In this document: positions 2,601-4,512 of the stretch, in pieces
Numbering within the stretch: position 1 is the first letter of the stretch
Layout of the letters: every line of letters starts with the position of its first letter
DNA from: Candidatus Peregrinibacteria bacterium
GTDB lineage: Bacteria; Patescibacteriota; Gracilibacteria; UBA1369; UM-FILTER-53-11
Reading direction: 5' to 3'
Length of the DNA stretch: 64,000 nt
Assembly (NCBI GenBank): GCA_016186205.1
Contig: JACPMA010000008.1
Span: 25,805 to 89,804, forward strand
Notes under the pieces: model-generated
The model's database searches: none
Told to the model about the DNA's origin: nothing
Seen by the model: only the letters and a program-made list of their open reading frames with translations
Position numbers and translations under genes: made by a program

Positions 2601-3050
2601 ATGAAACTTAAAGAAAAAATTCATACGGATATTCTTGCGGCTATGAAAGCTAAGGAAGATGTAAGAATGGGTGCGCTTCGATTGCTCAAAGCAGCTGTAA
2701 TGAAATTTGAAGTAGCCGGCGATAAAAAGAAAGAAGCTTCGGACGAAGAAGTGCTGCAGATTATTGGAAGGGAAGTAAAACAGCGAAAGGATTCGATTGA
2801 TGCGTATAAAAAAGGCGGGCGCGCGGATTTGGCTGTAAAAGAAGAGGCTGAATTAAAAATTCTTCAGGCGTATCTTCCAGCGCAAATGGATGAAGCGGAG
2901 CTGAAAAAAGTGGTTAGCCAAGTGATTAGTCAAACCGGCGCTGCATCAAAAGCAGATTTTGGGAAAGTTATGGGCGCGGTCATGGCTCAAGTAAAAGGAA
3001 AGGCGGACGGACAGATGGTAAGCCAGCTGGTAGGGGAAATACTGAAATGA
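2601..3050 (+). CDS. yqeY: GatB/YqeY domain protein
   Basis: MKLKEKIHTDILAAMKAKEDVRMGALRLLKAAV... and ILQAYLPAQMDEAEL typical of YqeY family. Confidence 0.88.
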   Translation: MKLKEKIHTDILAAMKAKEDVRMGALRLLKAAVMKFEVAGDKKKEASDEEVLQIIGREVKQRKDSIDAYKKGGRADLAVKEEAELKILQAYLPAQMDEAELKKVVSQVISQTGAASKADFGKVMGAVMAQVKGKADGQMVSQLVGEILK

Positions 3051-3132
3051 TTTTTACGCCTCGTTAAACTCGCTCGGCATTCAAATCGCTTTCTTGTTCT
3101 TGCTTATTTATAAATGAAAACTTCGCTCATCT

Positions 3133-3184
3133 CTATGGCATCCGGCTCGCTTCCATGACAGGGAGCGCTTGCCGCATGCCATAG
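3133..3184. repeat. Long imperfect hairpin (CTATGGCAT ... ATGCCATAG with nested GGC/GCC, CGCT/AGCG, CC/GG)
   Basis: Nested complementary arms read directly in the yqeY-tRNA intergenic region. Confidence 0.7.
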
Positions 3185-3201
3185 GATTCGCTTGTTTTCT
3201 A

Positions 3202-3288
3202 TGGTGGGCAGGGAGGGATTCGAACCCCCGAAGGCTGGAAGCCAACTGGTTTACAGCCAGTCGCGTTTGGCCACTTCGCTACCTGCCC
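3202..3288 (-). tRNA. tRNA-Tyr(GTA), CCA encoded
   Basis: Acceptor pairing CCTGCCC/GGGCAGG, T-arm GGGATTCGAACCCCC, anticodon GTA, long variable arm. Confidence 0.95.
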
Positions 3289-3509
3289 GTGTTTTGCAAT
3301 AAATTAAGTATACCTACAATAAGATTTGATACAGCAAGAATCGCAATAACAACCGTTAACCAGAATATTCTACTCCCTGCCTTTTTATAAGCCAAAATCT
3401 GTCGTCGCATCATTTCCGCATGCGCTGCTTCGGTAAATTGTCGGCTCTCGTTTTTTTCGAGCGATTGAACGATTTCGGATTCGGATTGATCGAGAATAGA
3501 CATATTCAT
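3279..3509 (-). CDS. Small single-TM membrane protein lying between tRNA-Thr and tRNA-Tyr
   Basis: MNMSILDQSESEIVQSLEKNESRQFTEAAHAEMMRRQILAYKKAGSRIFWLTVVIAILAVSNLIVGILNLLQNTGR; start shortened from the ORF track because upstream codons lie in the tRNA. Confidence 0.7.
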   Translation of the reverse strand: MNMSILDQSESEIVQSLEKNESRQFTEAAHAEMMRRQILAYKKAGSRIFWLTVVIAILAVSNLIVGILNLLQNTGR

Positions 3510-3510
3510 A

Positions 3511-3586
3511 TGGAGCCGCCTCCCGGATTTGAACCGGGGACCCACAGTTTACAAAACTGTTGCTCTACCAGCTGAGCTAAGGCGGC
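3511..3586 (-). tRNA. tRNA-Thr(TGT), CCA encoded
   Basis: Reverse complement GCCGCCTTAGCTCAGCTGGTAGAGCA...TTTTGTAAA...GGTTCAAATCCGGGAGGCGGCTCCA. Confidence 0.96.
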
Positions 3587-3621
3587 GCTACAATAAGGCT
3601 GACTTATATTAACCACCCTAC

Positions 3622-4512
3622 ATGCTTTTTGAAAAGCTGAAAGAGCGATTTCCAGGTATTCGTCAAAAAGAACCGCTGAAAAATCATTGTACGTTTCGCG
3701 TTGGCGGACCGGCGGATCTATTTTATGAACTTACGAATATTGAAGAAATTCCGGAACTGATCGCTTTCACTGAAGAAAACAGCATTCCTTACCGTATTAT
3801 TGGGCGCGGAACAAATGTTCTTTTTACGGACAAAGGCTTCCGCGGCCTCATAATCAAAAATCTCTCGAATGAATATCGCGTGGATGGCGAGGAAATTTCA
3901 GCAAACAGCGGCGCGCTATTGAGTCAAATTATCCGTCTTAGTATTGATAATAATTTAAGCGGGCTTGAACCGCTCTATGGACTGCCTGGAACTATTGGCG
4001 GCGCCGTATGGGGAAATGCCGGAATTCCTGGAACTGAAATAAAACAATTTGTTAAAAAAGTGGTGCTTTTTAATGCGAGTGATGGAGTAAGAGAAATGAA
4101 CGCCGATGAAATTTCTTTCCAATATAGAAAAACTTCGCTGCAGGATGCACAAAATATCATAATGCATGTTGTTTTAAGGCTCCAAAAAGGCCATCAGAAA
4201 GCCTCAAAAGAACTGATGAAAAAAATCGACGAAATCCGGAGAGGAAAACAGCCGATCGGATATACGGCGGGTTCTTTTTTCAAAAATCCTTCTCCGGAAA
4301 AACCGGCAGGCTGGCTTATAGATCAAGCAGGTTTAAAGGGAACACGTATTGGCGATGCTGAAATCAGCGCGAAGCATGCAAATTTCTTTATGAACACCGG
4401 CCATGCAACCGCTTTGCAAATTTTTGAACTGGCAGAGCTCGCGAAAACAAAAGTGAAAGAAAAATTCTCGATTGATCTTGAAATGGAAGTAAAAATCATC
4501 GGTGATCTGTAG
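3622..4512 (+). CDS. murB: UDP-N-acetylmuramate dehydrogenase
   Basis: NHCTFRVGGPADLF, IIGRGTNVLF, GLPGTIGGAVWGNAG, AGSFFKNP motifs. Confidence 0.95.
   Translation: MLFEKLKERFPGIRQKEPLKNHCTFRVGGPADLFYELTNIEEIPELIAFTEENSIPYRIIGRGTNVLFTDKGFRGLIIKNLSNEYRVDGEEISANSGALLSQIIRLSIDNNLSGLEPLYGLPGTIGGAVWGNAGIPGTEIKQFVKKVVLFNASDGVREMNADEISFQYRKTSLQDAQNIIMHVVLRLQKGHQKASKELMKKIDEIRRGKQPIGYTAGSFFKNPSPEKPAGWLIDQAGLKGTRIGDAEISAKHANFFMNTGHATALQIFELAELAKTKVKEKFSIDLEMEVKIIGDL

Follow-up and report, generated by a model that had tools for sequence, protein, structure and literature searches.

The window analysed here (the whole 64,000-nucleotide stretch of DNA) carries on its minus strand two tRNA genes with a small open reading frame (ORF) placed between them. 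The upstream gene, tRNA-Thr(UGU), lies at 3511..3586 and the downstream one, tRNA-Tyr(GUA), at 3202..3288; both were called by ARAGORN (tgt and gta) as well as by Rfam, and both encode their CCA, which the Rfam calls leave off. A first ATG (3507..3509) stands 1 base past the CCA of tRNA-Thr, a second in-frame ATG follows at 3503-3501, and from the latter the ORF (3279..3503, 74 aa) runs up to a TAG at 3281-3279. This stop codon is made of nucleotides 8-10 of tRNA-Tyr, with an overlap of 10 nt between the ORF and the tRNA gene. The original prediction had described this very anatomy, and it was confirmed by ARAGORN, Rfam and the sequence itself. The segment between the two tRNA genes (3289..3510, minus strand) measures 222 nt. 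The divergent neighbour murB (3622..4512, plus strand) is separated from the 5' end of tRNA-Thr by only 35 nt, and a gene for a YqeY-like protein (2601..3050, plus strand) converges from the other side; both are used below as synteny markers.

No other tRNA-Thr with the anticodon UGU was found in the genome, the nearest match having the anticodon CGT, and the tRNA-Tyr(GUA) is the sole full copy found, with just a 3' fragment matching elsewhere; as the assembly is 92% complete, a missed copy of either is possible. An exact 10-nt repeat, CTTATTGTAG on the minus strand, is present in the 3' part of the ORF (3314-3323) and again 1 base before tRNA-Thr (3588-3597). It occurs in 13% of shuffles and is, therefore, attributed to chance. 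An RNA-structured coupling across the whole locus was also considered and rejected, the fold z being only -1.4.

It had been proposed that GGGAGG in tRNA-Thr acts as the Shine-Dalgarno (SD) sequence of the ORF. The letters are indeed there (3524-3519, minus strand), where they are simply 3'-strand letters of the T and acceptor stems. However, an SD-like match of at least 4 bases is seen for 4 of the 43 window genes, against 4.5 expected in shuffles. The canonical 16S 3' tail is GGATCACCTCCTTT, and the tail found here, GGAATACCTCTTTTT (L056, around 3147-3210), reads CCUCU, without the CCUCC anti-SD core. With no SD enrichment and an altered 16S tail, SD-led initiation does not serve as a general signal in this genome; that the ORF lacks a separate SD, therefore, means nothing. 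An SD-led start from GGGAGG was ruled out on the same two grounds. A start 7 nt past the tRNA end would be workable under SD-independent or leaderless initiation. The 16S gene itself appears in two pieces (G000:C18:171049-171871 and 172472-174169), which suggests an intron.

The small protein and its homologues

A scan of genome contigs gave two homologues of the ORF product (L002 and L003, from two f26/g132 genomes), with E-values of 1e-23 and 1e-20 that are relative to the candidate stretches. Both come from distant genomes of the same class, and both align colinearly with the window protein over its whole length at 58% identity. The three proteins have an invariant block of 15 residues, SRQFTEAAHAEMMRR, in common, and membership of the window protein in this family of small proteins is further borne out by the RIFWLT motif and a C-terminal hydrophobic helix. 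The full-length alignment rules out a spurious ORF, and the original prediction, which had hinged in part on the protein being conserved, stands in this respect. On sequence grounds, the ORF encodes a genuine conserved protein. A phage origin was also considered and rejected, as no relatives were present among viral contigs.

The first Met of both homologues aligns with the second window ATG (3503). The two residues MN added by the first ATG thus fall outside the family. The predicted protein, of which QFTEAAHAEMMR is an example peptide, has a charged helical N-terminal half followed by one hydrophobic C-terminal helix, for which the hydropathy in the three family members is 2.6, 2.0 and 1.7; in a model built on the three sequences, the predicted helix spans residues 8-73. 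Each homologue terminates a few codons sooner, at a stop codon of its own, whereas the window frame continues via the spacer into tRNA-Tyr. Its C-terminus, NTGR, is accordingly makeshift, being composed of spacer and tRNA sequence.

In the domain libraries (Pfam, NCBIfam, PHROGs and PDB), no functional name was obtained for the small protein. The best E-values were 0.5 in Pfam, 0.02 in NCBIfam (13.5 bits for the window protein against a cut-off of 70 bits) and 0.2 in PHROGs, and there was no match in the PDB. The comparison of the ORF with L002 over 67 codons revealed changes at 48 third, 26 first and 21 second positions, with dS saturated. Judged by this pattern, the ORF is a protein-coding gene that was constrained over the time since its divergence from the homologues, the signal covering that period as a whole. 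Through a profile search of the class, the family was detected in 4 of 353 genomes (one of them with a weak partial match), that is, in two genera of the 208 searched, and a search of 380 genomes drawn from the phylum found the small protein in none of the others. The weak partial relative (E 2e-4) lies at a contig edge in G144 (L007, 3-182, minus strand), where it adjoins a gene resembling the aconitase family, named by eye, and no tRNA.

Occupied and empty sites, and the elements at tRNA 3' ends

In the genomes of the two homologues, an aminotransferase-like gene lies upstream, with the start of the small-protein gene at its stop codon or directly next to it, and an RsmE-like gene lies downstream (both labels assigned by eye); there is no tRNA within 6 kb. 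The original prediction had called for a look at the order of tRNA-Thr, ORF and tRNA-Tyr in relatives, and this order did not hold. In three genomes of the same family (G001, G005 and G004), tRNA-Thr(tgt) and tRNA-Tyr(gta) lie on one strand with gaps of only 4, 8 and 18 nt, respectively, and no ORF between them. A syntenic comparison is provided by G005 (L010), where PPDK, YqeY, tRNA-Tyr, tRNA-Thr, murB and the next ORF follow each other as in the window. Since the flanking order is kept around a tRNA gap of 8 nt, G005 represents the empty site. At the level of the order, 29 other tRNA-Tyr loci were surveyed, these three genomes included; in 11 of them, tRNA-Thr(tgt) immediately precedes tRNA-Tyr on the same strand, at a distance of 4-97 nt, and a profile search of the order placed the small-protein gene in none of the 11. 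A conserved tRNA-ORF-tRNA order was thus rejected.

The short Thr-Tyr gaps and the syntenic empty site within the family indicate that the ORF was inserted or relocated into an ancestral Thr-Tyr pair. The 222-nt insert holds little besides coding sequence, at most 7 nt preceding the second ATG. Four genomes of the family (f1) have the TAG at nucleotides 8-10 of tRNA-Tyr, three of them without an ORF at this place; the stop, therefore, predates the insertion and was inherited from the tRNA. As far as comparative sequence analysis goes, a tRNA pair has here received a lineage-specific insertion; the layout is unusual but does not amount to a new kind of system. The patchy distribution of the family would favour transfer from outside over a move within the lineage with losses elsewhere; with so tiny a set of homologues (two genera of 208), it is uncertain in which direction the gene moved, and when. 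The occupied site is known from one genome, the only one of its genus.

A strongly covarying 92-nt hairpin element (3108..3199, minus strand) begins 2 nt past the CCA of tRNA-Tyr, and the fold of this region has a z of -7.6. The element carries a conserved loop, TCCCTGTCAYGGA, and is flanked by AAGCGA and GAGCGAAG. There are 5-6 copies in this genome and 12 in G002, mostly 0-4 nt past tRNA CCA ends or duplicated tRNA 3' ends. Besides the window copy, they include those at L051 (1502-1594), L058 (415-516 and 241-332), L077-L101 and L079. In this genome, the hairpin also follows tRNA-Val(cac) and tRNA-Ala(cgc), and in G002 it follows tRNA-Met, Asp, Ser(cga), Ser(tga) and Ile. Among 18 aligned copies, 95% of the pair cells are standard, and 20 of the 28 pairs have changed on both sides, as against 13.6 in shuffles and 4-10 in slid versions, the alignment being fitted to the model. 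The hairpin has no match in Rfam. A REP/RAYT origin was rejected, as no Y1 transposase was found in this genome. The hairpin may be a mobile element, an RNA linked to tRNAs or a terminator.

In this genome (G000) and in G002, an insert of 128-142 nt comes after other tRNAs, and its last 21 nt exactly repeat the 3' end of the tRNA in front of it. These inserts, found at tRNA-Pro(cgg) (L066), tRNA-Val(tac) (L074), tRNA-Lys (L095) and tRNA-Pro(ggg) (L098), share GATTYGAATGCCG and a GC-rich stem, with an inverted T-arm copy at the near side; degenerate forms are present at L053, L071 and L097. A motif GATTTGAATGCCG with a small stem, located downstream of the hairpin in the window (3060-3087, minus strand), is apparently a truncated relative of these inserts. 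With different tRNAs carrying different copies, the inserts have the appearance of a family of very small elements that target tRNAs. Taken together, the hairpins and the inserts with 21-nt copies show that, in this lineage, tRNA 3' ends are hot spots for the insertion of small repeated elements. That a gene was inserted directly behind tRNA-Thr is, accordingly, less of a surprise. Nevertheless, site-specific integration at the 3' end of tRNA-Thr was rejected, as no repeat of that end exists within 400 nt; in contrast, a duplicated 3' end is present in this genome for tRNA-Pro(cgg) and for tRNA-Val(tac).

Transcription, termination and the fate of the message

The locus has the layout of a tufB-type mixed tRNA-protein operon, with its members on the same strand, short gaps and an ancestral tRNA pair, and from this we infer shared transcription of tRNA-Thr, the ORF and tRNA-Tyr. 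If they are co-transcribed, the stop within tRNA-Tyr would be lost on processing, as the original prediction had put forward; the accompanying loss of the SD carries no weight, as an SD is neither needed nor informative here. Cleavage of the shared transcript by RNase P would leave an mRNA with no stop. A conflict between the end of translation and the maturation of tRNA-Tyr is thus a fair prediction under co-transcription, and its use in regulation is without support.

The reading that we favour, with somewhat better than even confidence, is that a genuine small membrane-protein gene was inserted or moved into the Thr-Tyr pair, is read through from the tRNA-Thr promoter and borrows its stop from tRNA-Tyr. 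An ancestral tRNA-Thr(UGU)/tRNA-Tyr(GUA) pair would have received the gene in this lineage; the gene would have lost its own flanking DNA together with its own stop, and would now terminate at the TAG supplied by the tRNA. It would most likely be transcribed via read-through from the tRNA-Thr promoter, and its translation would begin without an SD at the second ATG, the template being either the transcript before processing or a fragment that has a very short leader. The cut by RNase P at tRNA-Tyr would then generate a non-stop message that could be rescued by tmRNA, and a tmRNA with a tag reading frame is present in the genome. A bolder version, in which an expressed gene has its only stop in a single-copy essential tRNA, so that each transcript could yield either a proper protein end or a mature tRNA-Tyr together with a non-stop mRNA, and in which tmRNA is in routine use, appears rather improbable.

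The gene may also be a mere passenger, an intact inserted copy that is expressed hardly or not at all since tRNA processing removes its ends, and that will decay with time. The arrangement is seen in one genome only, the stop and any leader fall within tRNAs, and the C-terminus is makeshift, all of which speak for this possibility. However, the 74-codon frame is intact and SRQFTEAAHAEMMRR is fully kept despite heavy synonymous change from the homologues, and we regard decay of an unused copy as unlikely, although no close relative carries the gene by which the insertion could be dated. Promoters, too, might be separate, with an mRNA start inside or just after tRNA-Thr and a promoter of tRNA-Tyr within the ORF, in which case there would be no conflict. 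TATACT lies in an AT-rich stretch around 20 nt before tRNA-Tyr, and a -10-like hexamer within the ORF might provide tRNA-Tyr with a start site of its own; inside the ORF, the consensus scan picked up a single weak promoter-like site on the minus strand. In that scan, however, promoter-like sites were no commoner than in shuffles, and the gaps of 4-18 nt in relatives imply an ancestral shared promoter; such independence is quite improbable.

It is most improbable that the arrangement was selected as a regulatory coupling, in which translation through the 5' end of tRNA-Tyr competes with RNase P, with an effect in turn on tRNA-Tyr or the protein. A ribosome terminating at nucleotides 8-10 would cover the RNase P site, and both tRNAs are single-copy as far as seen; nevertheless, the arrangement is kept in no relative, the homologues are located elsewhere, and the TAG is an old feature of the tRNA-Tyr of the family. 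As the order is not conserved and the homologues lie away from tRNAs, the proposal in the original prediction of competition between translation and tRNA maturation finds no support as a selected trait. An insertion that borrowed its stop would, with both an occupied and an empty site available in syntenic relatives, be a clean natural case of a protein gene that landed in a tRNA operon. If it is expressed, the locus would allow one to measure how a single RNA is shared between translation termination and cleavage by RNase P.

A limited literature search yielded no usable bacterial precedent for a stop codon inside a tRNA, and the locus is best placed beside three known systems. In mitochondrial tRNA punctuation, the excision of tRNAs yields mRNAs without leaders or full stop codons. 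Similarly, tRNA excision would define both ends of the mRNA here, but no stop-completing polyadenylation is expected, and rescue by tmRNA is the likely fate. In the tyrT operon of E. coli, the small tpr ORF lies in the tRNA-Tyr transcript beside repeats of the tRNA-Tyr 3' end. There, too, a small ORF is squeezed into a tRNA-Tyr transcript near repeated tRNA 3' ends; however, tpr lies in tRNA-derived repeats, whereas the window ORF is a conserved protein gene that has no relation to such repeats and came from elsewhere. The enterobacterial thrU-tyrU-glyT-thrT-tufB operon (PMC6134099) likewise joins a tRNA-Thr/tRNA-Tyr pair to a protein gene, the mRNA and the tRNAs being parted by processing. 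In that operon, the EF-Tu gene comes after the tRNAs, while here the ORF sits between Thr and Tyr and takes its stop from the tRNA.
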